A stretch of 64,000 nt of DNA from Sphingopyxis sp. HIX. Lineage in GTDB: Bacteria; Pseudomonadota; Alphaproteobacteria; Sphingomonadales; Sphingomonadaceae. Shown one piece after another: positions 2,604-44,579 of this stretch (the stretch's first letter is position 1; the number at the start of each line of letters is the position of its first letter). Where the stretch lies: positions 1-64,000 of the forward strand of contig NZ_LNSB01000016.1 of the NCBI RefSeq assembly GCF_001468285.1. The letters are read 5' to 3'. A program made the position numbers and the translations under genes. The notes under the pieces were generated by a model. That model worked only from the letters and a program-made list of their open reading frames with translations, was not told the origin of the DNA and made no database searches.

Positions 2604-4325
2604 TTGTCCGCGAGCGACCCCGTAGCTGACGAGCGGCAGGCGCACCGCGAAATCCGCGCGAGCGAATCGCGGCTCGAATTCGCGATGGCGGGCATCTTCA
2701 CGATCCTGATCGCGGGCACCCTCTACTATGTTTACCAGCTGTTCGCGCCGCTGGTGCCCGCGACGAACCTCCACATTTGGGCGTCGTTCACCGCCTTCGT
2801 CACGCTGGTGATGGCGGTGACGCCGATCGTCTTCTTCATCCGCCGCCCGAGCGCGCAAGCGATAGAGCGCTACTGGAGCCCGTTCGGCAAGCTCGTCGCG
2901 ATCCTGTTCGACCTGTCGGCGGCGGCGAGCGTGTGGCTGCTCCTCCCCTTCGCCAGCGAGCCGCTGCAATTGCTGATGGTGATCTTCTATTCGGCGGCGA
3001 TCAGCGGACAGGTGATCTCGACCGCCGAATCGATCGGCACCAACGTCTTCGCGGTGCTCAGCATCTTCGGCTCGGCGGCGATCTTCTTCCTCCAGTCGGA
3101 CACCGAATATGCGGGGTCGGTCGCGGGTTTCCTGATGGCGTTCGGCGGGCTGATGATCGTCGTCGCGCTGATCTTGAAACAGGCGATCCGCTCGGCGATC
3201 GCCAGCCGCCTCGCCGCCGAACGGCTGTCGGGCGAACTCGCGGTCGCGCTCGAGGATGCGCAGGACGCGCGCGACGCCCGCACGCGCTTCATCGCCGCGG
3301 CGTCGCACGACCTCCGCCAGCCGCTGCAGGCGGCGATGCTGTTCTTCCAGCAGATGCGGCGCCATCCCGACCCCGCGCGCCGCGAGGAAGCCGCCGAGGG
3401 CGTGACGCACGGCTTTGCCGAGGCCAATGCCTTGCTCGAACGGATGATGGAGCACCTCCGCATCGAAAGCGGCGCGGTGACGGTGCATCCGGAAGCCGTG
3501 GCGCTAGCGCCGCTATTCGCCGCGCTCGCCGACGAGCTGCGCCCGGCAGCGGCGCAGGCAAAGTTGAAGGTCGATGTCGAGGCGACGCCCTTGTGGGTGT
3601 TTGCCGACCCGACGCTGGTGACGCGCATCCTGCGCAACCTGATGCAGAACGCGATCGTCCATTCGCGTGCTGCGCAGCTGCGCCTGTCCGCCGCGAGCGA
3701 AGGCGTGCAGGTGCGGATCACCGTCGCCGACGACGGCGTCGGTTTCGACGAGGATTTCGCGGCGGCGGCTTTCGACGCCTATTCGCAGGGCGGCCAAGGA
3801 ACGGGCATGGGTCTCGGCCTGTCGATCGCGCGCGAACTGGCACGGCTGATGGGGGGCGAGCTGGCGCTCGACGGCCGCGGCAAGGGTGCGTGCTTCGCGC
3901 TGACGCTGCCCGCCGCCGAAGCCGTCGTGGCGCCCGCGGCCGAGAACACGACGAGCGAAGTCGCGCTGACCGGAATCGCTGTACTGGTGATCGACGACGA
4001 CCGCGCCGGGGCGACGGCGCTGGCCAATCTTCTGACGCTTGCGGGGGCCGATGCGCGGGCGGTACATGACGCAGCGGAGATCGCGGCGGCCCGCGACGGC
4101 GCATGGCGCGCCGACGTCATCGTCACCGACTGGCATATCGGCCGCGAGATGACCGGCGCCGATGCCATCGCGATGCTGCGTCCCGGCTGGCCCGACGCGC
4201 GCGCGCTGGTGATGACCGGTGACGCCGCGCCCGCCACCGCGCGGGACATCGCGGCGACGGGCTGGCCCCTGTTCATCAAGCCGGTCGACCCGGCCGCGCT
4301 CGGCCGGGCCATCGTCGGCGGCTAG
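2604..4325 (+). CDS. Hybrid sensor histidine kinase with C-terminal receiver
   Basis: A 573-residue inner-membrane sensor. About six transmembrane segments lie between residues 28 and 200. A DHp domain follows with the H-box AAASHDLRQPLQAAM (H235), then an HATPase with DDGVGFDED and GTGMGLGLSIA, then a receiver with phospho-acceptor D509 (VIVTDWHIG). The HDLRQPLQ variant of the H-box is typical of one hybrid-kinase subgroup. The TTG start at 2604 touches the TGA of the upstream regulator, implying coupling; a later ATG at about 2685 is an alternative. The stop overlaps the convergent stop of the next gene by the 4 nt CTAG. The signal sensed is unknown. Confidence 0.9.
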   Translation: MSASDPVADERQAHREIRASESRLEFAMAGIFTILIAGTLYYVYQLFAPLVPATNLHIWASFTAFVTLVMAVTPIVFFIRRPSAQAIERYWSPFGKLVAILFDLSAAASVWLLLPFASEPLQLLMVIFYSAAISGQVISTAESIGTNVFAVLSIFGSAAIFFLQSDTEYAGSVAGFLMAFGGLMIVVALILKQAIRSAIASRLAAERLSGELAVALEDAQDARDARTRFIAAASHDLRQPLQAAMLFFQQMRRHPDPARREEAAEGVTHGFAEANALLERMMEHLRIESGAVTVHPEAVALAPLFAALADELRPAAAQAKLKVDVEATPLWVFADPTLVTRILRNLMQNAIVHSRAAQLRLSAASEGVQVRITVADDGVGFDEDFAAAAFDAYSQGGQGTGMGLGLSIARELARLMGGELALDGRGKGACFALTLPAAEAVVAPAAENTTSEVALTGIAVLVIDDDRAGATALANLLTLAGADARAVHDAAEIAAARDGAWRADVIVTDWHIGREMTGADAIAMLRPGWPDARALVMTGDAAPATARDIAATGWPLFIKPVDPAALGRAIVGG

Positions 4326-5629
4326 CGTCGCCGGTCGGCGCACTCGCCGACCTGCGTCGTGTAATTATAGGTCGTGTCGAAGACGTAGAAATTGGTGATG
4401 CCCGCGGGAACGTCGCTTTCGAGCTGCGCCCAGCTGGCGTCGGGGTTGTCGGTGATGCGCTGGCCGCGCGGGACCGAGACGACGCGCACCTTGGGCTCGC
4501 CGGCGAGCTTGATCCCGATCGGCAGCGCGCCGGGCGGCGGCGAGTAGAAGACCTTGTCCTCGACGGTCTGGTCCTTCCAGACGAGGTAGGGCCGATCGCA
4601 TTTCACCGGGTCGCCGTTCTTGGGCAGGTCGGTGCCGCGTTCGGCCGGCGCGCTGCGGAAGAGATGCTTGCCGCCGAACTGCGCGACCGACAGCCGCCGG
4701 CGGACGGTGCGATCGACCTCGCTGTCGATCGTCGTGCTCACCGCATTGCTCTCGCCATAGGGCCCGGTCAGAACGATCCGCACGCTCTTGCCGCGGCCGA
4801 TGTCGGGGACCTTCACCGTCAGCGTCGCGGGCAGACGATCAGGCGCGACGGGATTCTCGGTGTCGCAGGCATAGCGAAAGCTGCCATAGAGGCAGATGAT
4901 CTCGCTGCCCGGATCGAGCGGATGCCAGTTGATCACCGAACCCGACGCGGGCCGGATCTGCACGCTGTTGTACGGCACGAAGGGCACCTCACCCGTGGGC
5001 ACGAAATCGAGCTGCGCGGCGTTGAAGCCGGCCGAACGGTCGGTGACGCGCTCCTGGCTCGCGGTCGCCGAGGCGACGAGCGCGGGCTTGGCGGCGGCGC
5101 GCATGAAGCGGATGGTGAAGGTCCGGCTGATGCTGTTGCCGTTGCTCTCGCGCGCGGTGACGGTGACGCGGTGCTCGCCCGGCATCGTCGAGGGGAAGGC
5201 GCCGGTGCCGGTCACCTTGAGCATCCGGAACACCGGATCGGCCTCGAGGCTGGCGGCGGCCATCACGGGCTGCTGCTGGATGCCCGCGGTGACGATCGGC
5301 TGGCCGCCGACCGAGGTGATCGGCGGCGGGTCGACGAGGGTGAAGCGGCTGGCGTTCGCGCCGTCGACCGCGATCGACAGCGTCACCCTGCCCCCGCCGC
5401 CGACGGTGCGGATACGCAGCGGCACTTCGGTCGTCGACCCCACGCCGGTGCCGGTGGTGACGGGGAGCAGGATCGTCCCCGACGGCACCTCGGTGAAGCC
5501 GAGCGGCGCGATCTGCAGCGCGGGTTTCTTCGCCAGCGGGTTGTCGGGCAAGGGCTGGATCTGCGCCGCAAGCGGTGCGGCGATGGCGGCCAGGCTTATC
5601 GCCGCCAATATCAGTGGTTTCTGCATCAT
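4322..5629 (-). CDS. Exported protein of unknown function, last gene of secretin operon
   Basis: A 435-residue protein with a clear Sec signal peptide (MMQKPLILAAISLAAIAAP, cleavage near LAAQ). The rest is beta-rich, with Ig-like stretches and few cysteines. It has no membrane anchor and I recognise no family. A start at 5626 is equally possible because two ATGs are adjacent; a CGAGGAGA Shine-Dalgarno precedes them. It lies 50 nt downstream of another exported protein and behind a secretin gene, so it is probably a substrate or periplasmic partner of that system. It is convergent with the histidine kinase, sharing CTAG at the stops. Confidence 0.75.
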   Translation of the reverse strand: MMQKPLILAAISLAAIAAPLAAQIQPLPDNPLAKKPALQIAPLGFTEVPSGTILLPVTTGTGVGSTTEVPLRIRTVGGGGRVTLSIAVDGANASRFTLVDPPPITSVGGQPIVTAGIQQQPVMAAASLEADPVFRMLKVTGTGAFPSTMPGEHRVTVTARESNGNSISRTFTIRFMRAAAKPALVASATASQERVTDRSAGFNAAQLDFVPTGEVPFVPYNSVQIRPASGSVINWHPLDPGSEIICLYGSFRYACDTENPVAPDRLPATLTVKVPDIGRGKSVRIVLTGPYGESNAVSTTIDSEVDRTVRRRLSVAQFGGKHLFRSAPAERGTDLPKNGDPVKCDRPYLVWKDQTVEDKVFYSPPPGALPIGIKLAGEPKVRVVSVPRGQRITDNPDASWAQLESDVPAGITNFYVFDTTYNYTTQVGECADRRR

Positions 5630-30606: not shown

Positions 30607-30965
30607 GAAAAGGTGGGACGATTCTGTTGCCCGGCTCGTCCCCAGCCGCTGGTATCCGATTCTGTTGCCCGGTTCGGTCCGAACCGCGTTCTATTTGAAT
30701 AACCTTAGGCCGTGAGGCTTATCGGTTACGCAGCCAGAGCGAGTGCTTCGTTATCGTTAGCACTTATTGGTTTTGAGCCTTTAACGGGTTACTCAGCCCG
30801 GAAGAAACCACCGTCTTTGAACACACGTCGATCCTGGTTCGGCCCCGTCAGAAACCCGCGCACCCCTTCTGGAAGGGCGCGGGTTCGTGGTGGAGCCGCC
30901 GGGTACTGCCCCCGGGTCCGCTGTGCCTATTCCACGGCAACATTTATCCTCATAGTCGGCCGAGG
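30607..30965 (-). ncRNA. ssrA: Two-piece (circularly permuted) tmRNA
   Basis: Read on the minus strand, the acceptor piece comes first and ends ggctccACCA, with CCA at 30890-30888. A 41-nt intervening sequence (30887-30847) contains a strong hairpin. The coding piece starts at 30846 with GGGGCCG. This pairs with CGGCTCC (30898-30892) as a 7-bp acceptor stem with a G3-U70 wobble, the alanine identity, and discriminator A. The tag frame GCT...TAA at 30761-30726 encodes ANDNEALALAA, the sphingomonad-type tag. The outer ends are estimates. Confidence 0.95.
30619..30672. repeat. 16-nt direct repeat within the tmRNA 3' region
   Basis: The sequence cgattctgttgcccgg occurs at 30619-30634 and 30657-30672, offset by 38 nt. 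Both copies fall near the 3' end of the tmRNA coding piece on the minus strand. They may mark duplicated pseudoknot or hairpin elements, so the mature 3' end could lie after either copy. Confidence 0.85.
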
Positions 30966-30984
30966 CCGACCTTCCCCATATAGG

Positions 30985-31021
30985 AAGCCCGCCCGCGCTT
31001 GGAAAGGGCGCGGACGGGCTT
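30985..31021 (-). terminator. Terminator of mscL
   Basis: A stem of 14 positions with one wobble or mismatch (30985-30998 against 31008-31021) surrounds a short ggaaag-type loop. It lies 22 nt beyond the mscL stop and just upstream of the tmRNA acceptor piece on the same strand. On the minus strand it is followed by cttcc, so the U-tract is weak. Confidence 0.65.
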
Positions 31022-31043
31022 GCCGTTGAAAAGCGGTGGAAAA

Positions 31044-31460
31044 TTATTTCTTGCGCAGTTCGTCGCGGATTTCGGCCAGCAGTTCGACCTCGGTCGGGCC
31101 CGCGGGCGCGTCGGGTTCCCTGCGCACGGCCTTGTTCACCGCCTTCACGAGCAGGAAGATGATCCACGCCAGGATCAGGAAATTGATCGTCGCGGTGATG
31201 AATGCGCCATAGCCGAACATCGCGACCCCGGCTTCCTTGAGCTTGGCATAGTCGGTCGGCGAGACGCCCGCGGGCACGTCGCCCAGCAGGATGAACATGT
31301 TCGAAAAATCGACCCCGCCGAAGATCCAGCCGACGACGGGCATGATCAGATCCTCGGTCAGCGACTTGGTGATCGTCGCAAAGGCGCCGCCGATGATCAC
31401 ACCGACCGCGAGGTCTATGACATTGCCGCGCGCGATAAATTCCCTGAACTCTGCCAACAT
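31044..31460 (-). CDS. mscL: Large-conductance mechanosensitive channel
   Basis: A 138-residue inner-membrane channel that opens under membrane tension to release solutes during hypo-osmotic shock. The N-terminal [20 protein letters not shown] is the family signature with the pore-lining TM1. It is followed by a periplasmic loop, TM2 ([16 protein letters not shown]) and a cytoplasmic helix [12 protein letters not shown]. The length is typical. It is divergent from lemA, with 118 nt between. Confidence 0.97.
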
Positions 31461-31578
31461 CTTGGCTCTCCCCGGATGGTTGGTCCTGCGTGCCGAAGGT
31501 GCCGCGCGGATTGCACAAAGGCAAGCACCATCCTATTATCTGTATTGTTGCGGCAAAACGCCGCCGGAGGGAGCCTCG

Positions 31579-32181
31579 ATGACCATGACCATGCGTTCCG
31601 CCCGCTGGATGATCCTGCCCGTCGCCGCGCTGAGCCTGTCCGCCTGCGGCATCAACAGCGTGCCGACCAAGGAAGAGGCGGCGAAGGCGAAATGGGCGAA
31701 TGTCGAAAATGAATATCAGCGCCGCGTCGACCTCTACCCCAATATCGAAGCGCTGGTGAAGGGCGCGATGAACCAGGAGAAGTCGGTGTTCGTCGGCGTT
31801 GCAGAGGCGCGTTCGAAAGCCTCGTCGATCCAGCTCACCGGCGACGACCTCAAGGACGCCGCCAAGGTCGAGCAATATCAGCAGGCGCAGGACCAATATG
31901 GCAGCGCGCTGAGCCGCCTGCTCGTCACGGTCGAGCAATATCCGAACCTCGTCTCGCCCAAGAATGTCGAGACCGCGCAGATCCAGATCGAGGGCACCGA
32001 GAACCGCGTGTCGCGCGCGCGCGAGGAATATAATGGCGCGGTGCAGGACTATAATACGACGATCCGCACCTTCCCCGACATCATCGGCGCGAAGATCGTG
32101 CACGGCGCCGAGCCGATGGTGCCGTTCAAGGCGGTCACCAAGGGCGCCGACGAAGCACCGAAGATGAACCTCGGCCAATAG
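31579..32181 (+). CDS. lemA: LemA family lipoprotein
   Basis: A 200-residue protein with a lipoprotein signal ending LSLSAC, then a long helical coiled-coil-like body with the LemA pattern WANVENEYQRRVDLYPN and VEQYPNLVS. The ATG at 31579 follows GGAGGGAG. LemA proteins are of unclear function and are usually encoded with TPM-domain proteins, as here. The stop is 1 nt before the next gene. Confidence 0.93.
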   Translation: MTMTMRSARWMILPVAALSLSACGINSVPTKEEAAKAKWANVENEYQRRVDLYPNIEALVKGAMNQEKSVFVGVAEARSKASSIQLTGDDLKDAAKVEQYQQAQDQYGSALSRLLVTVEQYPNLVSPKNVETAQIQIEGTENRVSRAREEYNGAVQDYNTTIRTFPDIIGAKIVHGAEPMVPFKAVTKGADEAPKMNLGQ

Positions 32182-32182
32182 G

Positions 32183-32713
32183 GTGCGCGCAGGCGCGGTC
32201 CTGACGGCTTTGGCAACGGCCTTGCTGCTCGTAGGCTGCAAGGCTGCCCCCGCCCCGGAGAAGGCAGCCGCGGCCGAGGACGCCGAATGCGCGCCGGTGC
32301 CGAAAGTGGAACTGGCCGGCCGGGTGACCGACGCCGCGGACATTCTCGCCGCGGCCGATGAAAGCCGGCTGGAAGCCCGCCTCGCCGCCTATGAGCAGGC
32401 GACGCGCCACCAGATGGTCGTCCTGACCGCGGCGAGCCTAGCGGGCCAGCCGATCGACACCTTCGCCACCTGCACCGCCAACCGCTGGGGCATCGGGCGC
32501 AAGGATGCGGACGACGGCATCCTGGTCCTCGTCGCGCCGGCGGAAAGGCAGGTGCGGATCGCAACCGGCCTCGGCATGGAAAAGACATTGACCGACGCGA
32601 AGGCGGCAACGGTGATCGACAGGATGACCCCGCATTTCACGGCAGGCGACTATGCCGGAGGCATCGACACCGCCATCGCCGCGATCGAAGCGGAAACGGG
32701 AGGGAGCCAATGA
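32183..32713 (+). CDS. TPM-domain lipoprotein
   Basis: A 176-residue protein with a lipobox (LLLVGC) and a TPM domain: GRVTDAADILAAADESRL followed by MVVLTAASLAGQ and DDGILVLVAPAERQVRIATG. TPM domains occur in YgcG-like and thylakoid lumen phosphatase-like proteins. The GTG at 32183 is the only start giving the lipoprotein signal. It is lemA-coupled and overlaps the next TPM gene by ATGA. It lacks the C-terminal membrane helix of its neighbour. Confidence 0.85.
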   Translation: MRAGAVLTALATALLLVGCKAAPAPEKAAAAEDAECAPVPKVELAGRVTDAADILAAADESRLEARLAAYEQATRHQMVVLTAASLAGQPIDTFATCTANRWGIGRKDADDGILVLVAPAERQVRIATGLGMEKTLTDAKAATVIDRMTPHFTAGDYAGGIDTAIAAIEAETGGSQ

Positions 32714-41747: not shown

Positions 41748-44579
41748 ATGGCGCTCACCCCGCAATGGCTGGACGAACTGCGTTCGCGCATCACGCTGTC
41801 GACCCTGATCGGGCGCACGGTGAAGGTCACGCGCGCCGGCCGCGAATATAAGGCCTGCTGCCCCTTCCATAACGAAAAGACCCCCAGCTTCACGATCAAC
41901 GACGAGAAGGGCTTCTACCACTGCCTGGCGGCGGACACGCCGGTCATCACCGAAAACGGCCGGATGCCCATAGCGACGCTTGCCGACCGGACCGTGCGTG
42001 TTCTGTCGCGCAACGGCGAATGGGTCGCCGCTCCCTTCAGATCCTATGGCGAGCAACAGCTCTGGAAAATAGGGCTTTCGCGTAACGGCGTCCGCAAGGA
42101 AATCTATGCCACGTCGGGCCACCGCTGGTTCGTGAACGATCGGTCCCGAACCTATACCACCGAGGAACTGAGACCGGGACATGCCCTTGAAGCGGCACTT
42201 CCGGCCAAGCGATCGGATTGGGCACTCGATCCGGACGGCGTGCGGCACGGCATCGTCTTTGGCGACGGGACCATCAGCAAGGCCGTTTACGGCACCCTGA
42301 ACCTTCATGGCGAGAAGGATGCCCAATTGCGGCACTGGTTCCCGGCCCAGGAGCATCATGTCCACGAGCGCAAGGGTGGAGCCCTTTATCTGCGCATCTA
42401 TGGCGGTCGCGCCTTTTCGCATATGAAGACGCTGCCCGGCGCCGGCCGGTCGCAAGCCTATCTGCTGGGCTTTCTCGCGGGATATCTGGCCGCCGATGGC
42501 CATGTCGCGAAAGACGGCACTGTGATTCTCAACTCATCCTCGGCAGAACATCTGGAAGCGGTCCGCGACATCGCGACGACGCTGGGCATCACAACCTATG
42601 GCCGGACGACCCTGATGCGCAAAGGCTATGGAGCCGACCCGAGCCCATTGCATCGCATCCATTTCGTAACCTCCACCCTGTCGGAGGAATTGTTTCTGCT
42701 CGATACGGCGCGGCAGCGCTTTGCCGCACGAACGAAGAAGTTCGACCGGTTGCGCTGGGTGGTGCGCTCGGTCGAACCCACGGACCGCATCGAAACCGTC
42801 TATTGCGCCGAAGTCCCACGCCACCATGCGTTCGCGCTCGACGACAATATCCTCACCGGCAATTGCTTCGGCTGCAGCGCGCATGGCGACGCGATCCGCT
42901 GGATGACCGACCAGCGCGGCCTCAGCTTCATGGATGCGGTCAAGGAACTCGCCGCCGAGGCCGGCATGGAGGTGCCCGCCGCCGACCCGCGCGCCGCGAA
43001 AAAGGCCGAGGAGCAGGCGAGCCTGCGCGACGTGACGCAGGCCGCCGCCGACTGGTTCACCCAGCAGCTCGGCAGCAGCAACGGCGCCCCGGCGCGCGAC
43101 TATCTGGCGAAGCGCGGCATTTCGGAGGCGACGCGCAAGGCCTTCGGCTTCGGCCTTGCCCCCGACAGCCGCAGCGCACTCAAGGAAGCGCTCAAGAAAT
43201 TCCCGACCGCGATGCTCGTCGAATCGGGGATGCTCATCGCGGTCGACGACAAGGAGCCCTACGACCGCTTCCGCGGGCGGCTGATGATCCCGATCCGCGA
43301 CGCGCGCGGGCGCGTGATCGCTTTCGGCGGCCGCATTTTGGGCGACGGCGAGCCCAAATATCTGAACTCGCCCGACACGCCGCTCTTCGACAAGGGGCGC
43401 ACGCTCTACAATCTCGACAAGGCCTCGCCCGCCTCGCGTCAGACGAACCGGATCATCGTCGTCGAGGGCTATATGGACGTCATCGCGCTCGCCGAGGCGG
43501 GGATCACCGACGCCGTCGCGCCGCTCGGCACCGCGCTCACCGAGAACCAGCTCGGCATGATCTGGCGCATGGTGCCCGTGCCCGTCCTGTGCTTCGACGG
43601 CGACGCGGCGGGACAGAAGGCCGCGATGCGCGCCGCCAACCGCGCGCTGCCGCTGCTTCGCCCGGGCTTCAGCCTCGCCTTCGCAACGCTGCCCGCGGGG
43701 CAGGATCCCGACGACCTCGTCCGTGCACGCGGCGCCGCGGGTTTCCTCGAAGTTCTCGAAGACGCGCAGCCGCTCGTCGAGCGCCTCTGGGCGCATGAGG
43801 TTGCCGCCGGCCCGCTCGCGACCCCCGAGGAGCGCGCCGCGCTCAAGACGCGCCTGCTCGCGCATGCCGATGCGATCGAGGATGCCGACGTCCGCCACCA
43901 TTATCGCGAAGCCTTTCGCGAGCGGCTCGACACGCTCTTCACGCGCAAGGCGCCCGAGCGCGGCCCGCGCGTCCCCTGGGCGCCGCAAGGCCCGCGCGGC
44001 GGTGGCCGCGGCCGCTTCGCCCCCGACCCGCGGCTGCAACCTCCGGCCGACGAGACGCGTAGTATCGGCCAGGCCGGAATCGCCGCGCCGCTGATCGCCG
44101 CGCTGCTCGGCGGATTGCTGCGCCACCCGGAGGCGCTGCGCCGCCACGAGGAGGCACTTTGCCGCCTGCCGGTCGGCGATTCCAGCGACGCCGAACTGCT
44201 CGGCACAATGCTTGACACGGCCATGCGCCAAGAAGGGCTTGATACTGAGGGCTTGCTTGCCATATTGGAGCCGATGAAAGTGTATAATAGGGCGACGACA
44301 TTGCTCAGAGCCGATGGAATGCACTTCTCGTTCAATCGCAGGCTGGACAGCAAGGACGGGGCCGATGCGGCGCGGAAGGCCGCGCTTCGCGACCTCGACG
44401 AATTTATCGGCGTGCTCGTGACGCAGCCCGAAATCCGCGCCCGGCTCGCCGAGGCGACCGCGGATTTCCAGCGCACGATGGACGACGCAGGATTGGAGCG
44501 ACAGCAAAAGCTGCGCGCGATGGACGAGGATCTGACCCGCCGCCTGGCCGCGCTGTCCGAAGACAGCCCGCAGGCTTGA
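41748..44579 (+). CDS. dnaG: DNA primase DnaG containing an in-frame intein
   Basis: The 943-residue precursor is predicted to splice to a 629-residue primase that makes RNA primers at replication forks. The zinc-finger ligands C38 and H41 lie before the insertion and C373 and C376 after it. In the spliced protein these become C38-H41-C59-C62, matching the normal 3-18-3 spacing. The catalytic TOPRIM segment includes IIVVEGYMDVIALAEAG, followed by a helicase-interaction C-terminus. The precursor cannot have an intact zinc site, so primase function should depend on splicing. It is 23 nt upstream of rpoD. Confidence 0.96.
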   Translation: MALTPQWLDELRSRITLSTLIGRTVKVTRAGREYKACCPFHNEKTPSFTINDEKGFYHCLAADTPVITENGRMPIATLADRTVRVLSRNGEWVAAPFRSYGEQQLWKIGLSRNGVRKEIYATSGHRWFVNDRSRTYTTEELRPGHALEAALPAKRSDWALDPDGVRHGIVFGDGTISKAVYGTLNLHGEKDAQLRHWFPAQEHHVHERKGGALYLRIYGGRAFSHMKTLPGAGRSQAYLLGFLAGYLAADGHVAKDGTVILNSSSAEHLEAVRDIATTLGITTYGRTTLMRKGYGADPSPLHRIHFVTSTLSEELFLLDTARQRFAARTKKFDRLRWVVRSVEPTDRIETVYCAEVPRHHAFALDDNILTGNCFGCSAHGDAIRWMTDQRGLSFMDAVKELAAEAGMEVPAADPRAAKKAEEQASLRDVTQAAADWFTQQLGSSNGAPARDYLAKRGISEATRKAFGFGLAPDSRSALKEALKKFPTAMLVESGMLIAVDDKEPYDRFRGRLMIPIRDARGRVIAFGGRILGDGEPKYLNSPDTPLFDKGRTLYNLDKASPASRQTNRIIVVEGYMDVIALAEAGITDAVAPLGTALTENQLGMIWRMVPVPVLCFDGDAAGQKAAMRAANRALPLLRPGFSLAFATLPAGQDPDDLVRARGAAGFLEVLEDAQPLVERLWAHEVAAGPLATPEERAALKTRLLAHADAIEDADVRHHYREAFRERLDTLFTRKAPERGPRVPWAPQGPRGGGRGRFAPDPRLQPPADETRSIGQAGIAAPLIAALLGGLLRHPEALRRHEEALCRLPVGDSSDAELLGTMLDTAMRQEGLDTEGLLAILEPMKVYNRATTLLRADGMHFSFNRRLDSKDGADAARKAALRDLDEFIGVLVTQPEIRARLAEATADFQRTMDDAGLERQQKLRAMDEDLTRRLAALSEDSPQA
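41922..42863 (+). other. Intein with LAGLIDADG-type endonuclease region in DnaG
   Basis: A 314-residue in-frame insertion (precursor residues 59-372). Block A begins CLAADTPVITENG with Cys1; block B has the TxxH in YATSGHRWF. LAGLIDADG-like motifs appear as GIVFGDGTIS (about 166-175) and GFLAGYLAADGH (about 241-252). The C-terminal blocks read RHHAFALDDNILTGN followed by Cys+1. The last intein residue is Asn, but the penultimate residue is Gly rather than the usual His. Codon use is less GC-biased than in flanking dnaG, consistent with horizontal arrival. Confidence 0.95.

Follow-up and report, generated by a model that had tools for sequence, protein, structure and literature searches.

A mobile class 1 intein predicted in the CHC2 zinc finger of the DnaG primase of Sphingopyxis sp. 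HIX

Introduction

The primase DnaG is already in print as a host of inteins. Table 1 of PMC5874633 lists it among the proteins that harbor inteins in Eubacteria; these DnaG inteins, which have the same host protein as the element described here, are given without site or species in the accessible text. Other described inteins resemble this element in part. Mycobacteriophages carry TOPRIM and RDF inteins (Kelley 2016, PMC5050341), which are likewise mobile, reside in phage replication proteins and, in case of the RDF intein, share its penultimate Gly. The TOPRIM inteins, however, are described as active-site insertions in a topoisomerase-primase, and the available parts of that paper make no mention of a zinc finger. 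Mycobacterial DnaB intein 1 (PMC7360933; PMC6195587) also has a replication protein as its host and a cysteine as its nucleophile, but it belongs to class 3, is followed by a Ser at the +1 position and, as far as the accessible text of these papers goes, sits at a junction without a host metal ligand. Lastly, PI-PfuI, TliVMA and PI-SceI have the same combination of a Hint and a two-motif LAGLIDADG fold that our structural model predicts for the present intein, but they are 10-18% identical to it, come from archaeal or yeast hosts and occupy other sites.

Within the open-licence PMC literature, to the extent that its texts were accessible, we found no paper naming the DnaG finger site, an intein in a MobF relaxase or a freestanding form of such an intein. 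One older database entry, which takes its name from a Nocardioides TOPRIM protein, may be a DnaG intein.

In the following, we describe an element found in a stretch of 64,000 nucleotides from Sphingopyxis sp. HIX, to which we refer as a whole as the window. It is very probably a mobile class 1 intein, located in the CHC2 finger of the single DnaG of this organism and predicted both to splice and to home.

Results

The dnaG gene of the window is one open reading frame (Table 1), whose 943-residue product matches the DnaG model TIGR01391 in two stretches with 423.7 bits in total; in a whole-genome search, these cover model positions 3-60 and 57-413. Nucleotides 41922-42863 are translated without a stop codon into 314 residues, which begin with CLAAD and end with LTGN, followed by CFGC. 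Two zinc-ligand residues, C38 and H41, precede this segment, and two, C373 and C376, follow it. Upon its removal, they become C38, H41, C59 and C62 of the spliced protein, with a spacing of 3-18-3, and the joined finger aligns through all four ligands to two primases of known structure, 1d0q (E 3.7e-24) and 2au3 (E 1.8e-15). The residues of 1d0q aligned to C38, H41, C59 and C62 bind zinc.

By sequence comparison, an intein directly before the third zinc ligand of the DnaG CHC2 finger is thereby confirmed. The initial annotation had already placed an intein here, with Cys+1 as the third ligand and with the ligand spacing recovered after removal of 314 residues; the in-frame borders, the split TIGR01391 match and the alignments to 1d0q and 2au3 agree with it on each of these points. 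Its estimates of about 69 kDa for spliced DnaG and about 34 kDa for the intein are close to the calculated masses of 68.8 and 35.0 kDa (103.8 kDa for the precursor), and the separate intact dnaG that it had named as a refuting finding was not found in a search of the whole Sphingopyxis sp. HIX genome. With one dnaG in the genome, an unspliced product would be without any backup that we could see. A point absent from the initial annotation is that, in the unspliced precursor, Cys1 of the intein takes the position of the third ligand, which leaves only one of the four positions unfilled before splicing.

A chance or misassembled insertion is ruled out by 30 other DnaG loci, which carry a relative of the intein at the same residue.

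Table 1. Positions of the DnaG intein, its host and its motifs in the window, and of related elements at other loci
Feature	Position	Strand	Details and basis
dnaG ORF with intein	41748-44579	+	single frame, 943 aa
N-extein of DnaG, residues 1-58	41748-41921	+	TIGR01391 and PF01807 matches; alignment to 1d0q
Zinc ligand C38 in N-extein	41859-41861	+	alignment to 1d0q
Zinc ligand H41 in N-extein	41868-41870	+	alignment to 1d0q
Predicted class 1 intein, 314 aa, Cys1-Asn314, penultimate Gly313	41922-42863	+	translation, 32-row alignment, intein fold match
Cys1, presumed first nucleophile	41922-41924	+	invariant 32/32
Block B TxxH, intein T64-H67	42111-42122	+	T64 and H67 invariant 32/32
First LAGLIDADG motif, GIVFGDG, with D115	42249-42269	+	D115 invariant 32/32
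Second LAGLIDADG motif, LAGYLAADG, with D192	42474-42500	+	PF14528 over cut-off; D192 invariant 32/32
Block F Cys295	42804-42806	+	invariant 32/32
C-extein of DnaG, DNAG_N and Toprim domains	42864-44579	+	Pfam
Cys+1, third zinc ligand, start of C-extein	42864-42866	+	kept in 30/30 precursors
Cys+4, fourth zinc ligand, C-extein	42873-42875	+	kept in 30/30 precursors
Freestanding intein-derived LAGLIDADG ORF	L037:4881-5957		directly upstream of intein-free dnaG
Freestanding intein-derived LAGLIDADG ORF	L168:1474-2688	-	directly upstream of intein-free dnaG
MobF relaxase of plasmid pSR-4	L038:449-5908, intein 4001-4927		intein 51% identical

To define the conserved residues, we aligned the window intein with 30 DnaG relatives and a plasmid copy (alignment A1, 32 rows). 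C1, T64, H67, D115, D192, C295, T312, G313 and N314 are invariant in all rows. Cys1, the TxxH motif of block B and the terminal Asn (32/32) are features of class 1 inteins, as is Cys+1, which is present in all 30 precursors. A Hint fold is indicated by the match of our structural model to the mini-intein structure 6frg, and the insertion is exact and in frame, its removal restoring the host finger as judged by the alignment to 1d0q and by 30 of 30 empty sites. The penultimate His, which is usual but not obligatory in class 1, is absent, and a Gly takes its place in 32 of 32 sequences. The LAGLIDADG-like motifs reported in the initial annotation are likewise found: the two motifs with their acidic residues D115 and D192 are those of a LAGLIDADG endonuclease, and LAGLIDADG_3 (PF14528) scores above its Pfam cut-off (38.3 versus 22.5 bits). 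Intein_splicing (PF14890; E 8.8e-5, 22.8 versus 35.8 bits), which 24 of the 32 relatives match at E 0.01 or better, and the NCBIfam model intein_Nterm (TIGR01445; E 0.0014, 19.5 versus 24.5 bits) remain below their cut-offs, which counts against this reading. A score above the cut-off of a curated intein model is a criterion of the tool and does not define class 1 inteins. Overall, the element belongs to class 1, carries a LAGLIDADG domain with two motifs and is predicted to splice.

Two other assignments were considered and rejected. BIL domains usually have neither a +1 nucleophile nor a homing nuclease, whereas Cys+1 and a LAGLIDADG domain are both present here. Class 3 inteins have no nucleophile at position 1, as stated in the accessible text of PMC5050341, whereas Cys1 is present in our element.

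A PDB sequence search with the single intein protein returned no solved relatives, and a search with an intein profile returned only two matches (E 0.07 and 0.09). A structural model of residues 1-432 of the precursor was built from 30 aligned precursors (pLDDT 82.3, pTM 0.71). In Foldseek, this model matches TliVMA (7qsu, E 4.3e-13) as well as the folds of PI-PfuI and I-DmoI; in VIA-align, it superimposes on PI-PfuI 1dq3 with a Z of 22.7 (rmsd 3.4, 301 aligned) and on the Ssp DnaB mini-intein 6frg with a Z of 19.9 (rmsd 1.8, 130 aligned). The confidence of the model drops in the finger's N-terminal half, where residues 1-60 have block means of 56-76, and reaches its minimum, below 50, at residues 374-379, which is compatible with a finger that would be unformed until splicing.

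In our genome collection, a scan with the single intein protein yielded 31 loci. In 30 of these, the intein resides in DnaG at the same site, with H, Y or F before its first Cys and with TGN followed by CFGC at its end, while the 31st (L037) lies outside any host protein. The 30 carriers belong to Sphingopyxis, Novosphingobium, Sphingomonas, Azospirillum and Actinobacteria, the latter including Glycomyces, Nocardiopsis, Nonomuraea and Streptomyces; among the nearest relatives is L007, at 89%. Full-length matches occur in 6 of 80 genomes of the genus, in 2 of 298 of the family sample, a count that leaves out G124 (34% over 100 residues, one internal stop), and in 3 of 385 of the class sample, where G394 (an RNR intein) is left out and one match is new (L050, in DnaG with the same junctions). 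A sample of 398 Pseudomonadota returned the full-length match of the organism's own genome and two weak partial ones. Among 346 Actinobacteria, full-length matches are the centre G751, which has the intein in DnaG, and L057, which has it in a dCMP-deaminase-like host; L057 and L058, the latter with an RNR-like host, were set aside by eye before counting, and 13 weaker matches were left out.

A DnaG-type zinc ribbon is found in 73 of the 80 genus genomes, split by the intein in 6 and matched continuously in 67. All 30 intein-free loci that we examined in the genus have an uninterrupted site, identical to the joined flanks of the window in 107-115 of 120 bases, and the DNA flanking the insertion site is strongly conserved among carriers. 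One carrier of the same genus, G313, has an additional unsplit ORF of 618 aa with a DnaG-type zinc ribbon (G313:C3:188360-188632) and may therefore possess a spare primase.

Of 298 genomes sampled from the Actinomadura family, 30 gave matches, the unclassified L191, L194 and L197 and the weak L199-L201 included. Sixteen loci (L173-L188) contain full DnaG inteins at the site, although some of their species repeat those of the 31-locus scan. Four DnaG inteins are reduced in their nuclease and comprise 154, 172, 207 and 276 aa (L195, L196, L193 and L192, respectively): their nuclease motifs are missing or broken, while C1, TxxH and the terminal TGN with its following C are retained, as expected with selection on splicing. 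Further relatives of the intein were noted by eye in RtcB-like proteins (L189, L190, L198).

The two freestanding ORFs, found in Actinomadura rupiterrae (L037) and in a second genome of that genus (L168), are without Cys1, TxxH or the terminal GN-C. The adjoining dnaG is intact and free of an intein, although in L168 it is visible over 478 aa only, up to the edge of the sequence; a scan of 65 genomes of the genus gave these two as clear matches and two more as weak ones. The nuclease part of L037 is 77% identical to actinobacterial inteins, which share 78% among themselves, whereas its two splicing halves are 40% and 34% identical to them, compared with 70% and 87% among these inteins. Comparison of the two freestanding ORFs with each other gives a pN/pS of 0.23 for the nuclease and values of 0.62 and 0.75 for what remains of the splicing parts; given this low value and the retained identity, against the decay of the splicing parts, the nuclease seems to be still under selection. 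In eight sphingomonad inteins, pN/pS is 0.27 in the Hint domain, 0.20 in the nuclease and 0.10 in the first 45 C-extein codons, and both intein domains look constrained, even if these three values, obtained by a simple count, are rough because silent sites are near saturation in many pairs. Taken together, the empty, full, reduced and freestanding forms would make up a homing cycle. The homing history suggested in the initial annotation is supported.

In viral contigs, a scan with the single intein protein found no relatives. A profile scan found 12, a wider profile scan 112, of which 80 were kept, and a scan seeded by the phage intein L072 four. Host contexts were read for 75 loci, namely the 12 and a further 63 (61 of the 80 kept loci together with L165 and L166), 19 of the kept loci being left out because they lie on the same contig or are apparent near-copies. 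Eleven of the 75 contexts, ten of them distinct, are primase fingers (L072, L073, L078, L081, L086, L087, L088, L103, L125 and L166); by eye, many of the other hosts are ribonucleotide reductases or unrelated proteins. On these counts, a preference of the whole lineage for zinc ligands is not established. The insertion, again judged by eye, lies before the third ligand in nine of the ten and before the fourth in L081. All ten match PHROG DNA primase families, while the Pfam CHC2 finger is above its cut-off in two and weakly matched (E 0.0017 to 0.1) in three more, so that in the remaining carriers the finger was assigned by reading. The intein of L072 is 55-59% identical to the alphaproteobacterial copies and 47% to the actinobacterial ones.

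Two phage loci contain more than one intein. From position 4001 of L075, a ribonucleotide-reductase-like ORF harbors two related inteins in tandem, Cys1 of the second doubling as Cys+1 of the first. In L078:3791-7531, a primase-helicase carries, besides the finger intein, another intein of the HNH type that precedes its DnaB_C part.

The plasmid copy is found on pSR-4 of Skermanella rosea, in a host protein that combines a TrwC relaxase and a helicase domain with a CHC2 zinc ribbon, and occupies the same position in the CHC2 finger as the DnaG inteins. This plasmid is typed as non-mobilizable in PLSDB; relatives of the relaxase part occur in 98 plasmid records, but a search of this collection for the intein matched the pSR-4 record only.

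Discussion

We propose that the intein would excise itself by the class 1 route: Cys1 would attack the bond following His58, the ester would move on to Cys+1, and Asn314 would cyclise, whereupon the exteins would be ligated. The product would be a primase of 629 aa with the finger ligands C38, H41, C59 and C62. In cells with intein-free copies, the LAGLIDADG endonuclease would cut the highly conserved dnaG stretch, and repair would copy the intein into the cut site and thereby spread it. Its strong conservation and the availability of a Cys+1 probably make this site a favoured one, and it may be incidental that the Cys+1 also serves as a zinc ligand.

Alternatively, the intein could be regulatory. 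Zinc or oxidation would keep the precursor unspliced and pause the maturation of the primase; C38, H41 and Cys1 would form a site with Cys+1 and Cys+4 close by, and zinc would capture the splicing nucleophiles. C38, H41, C59 (Cys1), C353, C373 and C376 are indeed invariant in 30 of 30 precursors, and the accessible text on the mycobacterial DnaB intein describes its inhibition by zinc bound to the nucleophile (PMC7360933) and its redox sensitivity (PMC6195587). Yet Cys1 and C295 are equally fixed in relatives outside zinc fingers, the patchy occurrence in 6 of 80 genomes of the genus is unlike that of a function required by the host, and unrelated inteins are likewise inhibited by zinc, so that such inhibition would lack specificity. 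We thus consider a regulatory role rather improbable. Similarly doubtful in our eyes is a broader proposal, in which one residue of this lineage is both splicing nucleophile and host metal ligand, and C38, H41, Cys1 and a downstream Cys would form a zinc gate on primase splicing, while the lineage moves between the primases of phages, the relaxases of plasmids and host DnaG; if true, this gating would couple priming to the metal or redox state.

We return to the mobile intein and its spread. On average, the inteins of sphingomonads and Actinobacteria are 48% identical and their exteins 34%; the corresponding values are 51% and 33% for Azospirillum and Actinobacteria, and 58% and 45% for sphingomonads and Azospirillum. 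The inteins are thus closer than their host proteins across phyla, which argues for horizontal transfer. In a midpoint-rooted intein tree of 78 rows, which has long branches and a very long one for L081, the actinobacterial DnaG inteins and the two freestanding forms constitute one clade (100/99), with phage L073 as its sister (99/95). The plasmid copy pairs with phage L086 (100/98), and the alphaproteobacterial DnaG inteins are weakly grouped (83/32). The primase-finger copies do not form a single clade. Inteins seem to have arrived at the finger site at least twice, and their neighbours in the tree are phage copies. We hold it very unlikely that the inteins descended vertically, with many losses, from an ancient DnaG intein of Alphaproteobacteria and Actinobacteria: while intein and extein identities correlate, with a Spearman coefficient of 0.86 overall and 0.72 within Actinobacteria, the correlation is absent within Azospirillum (-0.05, 15 pairs), and both the excess of intein over extein identity between phyla and the two phage sister groups speak against it. 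Given the midpoint rooting and the long L081 branch, we can only infer the direction of transfer, from phage to host; likewise, we infer that phage primases are the reservoir of this intein lineage.

The initial annotation had also noted atypical codon use. The GC3 of the intein is 0.73, compared with 0.88 and 0.86 in the exteins, but it is not unique in the window: of 91 gene-length segments taken from 14 ORFs, 11 have a GC3 no higher than this. However, two of the three low-GC3 ORFs are without a Pfam match and may not be genes. Relative to the C-extein, the GC3 of the intein is reduced by at least 0.04 at 12 of 13 tabulated sphingomonad loci and equal at L013; it is lower at the Azospirillum locus L020 and equal at L019, and lower by 0.02-0.08 in three Actinobacteria. 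As a separate observation, the window region 30635-32343 contains a tmRNA gene overlapped by a 516-aa ORF with a GC3 of 0.57 and without a Pfam match, which may stem from foreign DNA or be spurious.

The penultimate Gly had originally been taken to point to slow splicing. This is not supported, since every one of the 32 aligned inteins has Gly313 and a phage RDF intein with a penultimate Gly, as the available text reports, splices completely and is slowed by a change of Gly to His (Kelley 2016, PMC5050341); a penultimate Gly does, therefore, not rule out membership in class 1. That the element is a slow or splicing-dead relic, and that the cell relies on another primase or on the unspliced protein, is the reading to which we give the least credence, for despite the missing penultimate His and the Pfam Intein_splicing score under the cut-off, no second dnaG was found in the genome, all splicing residues are retained, and the invariance of the Gly and the published Gly intein also speak against it.

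For the biology of the family, the mobile intein matters in three respects. The splicing centre and the metal site of an essential enzyme share one cysteine, which makes the question of a selfish or a regulatory element testable. One intein lineage occupies one site in phage primases, a plasmid relaxase and the DnaG of cellular hosts, a finding relevant to the passage of inteins between phyla. Finally, in two Actinomadura genomes, the intein appears to have turned into a freestanding endonuclease that adjoins its former target.
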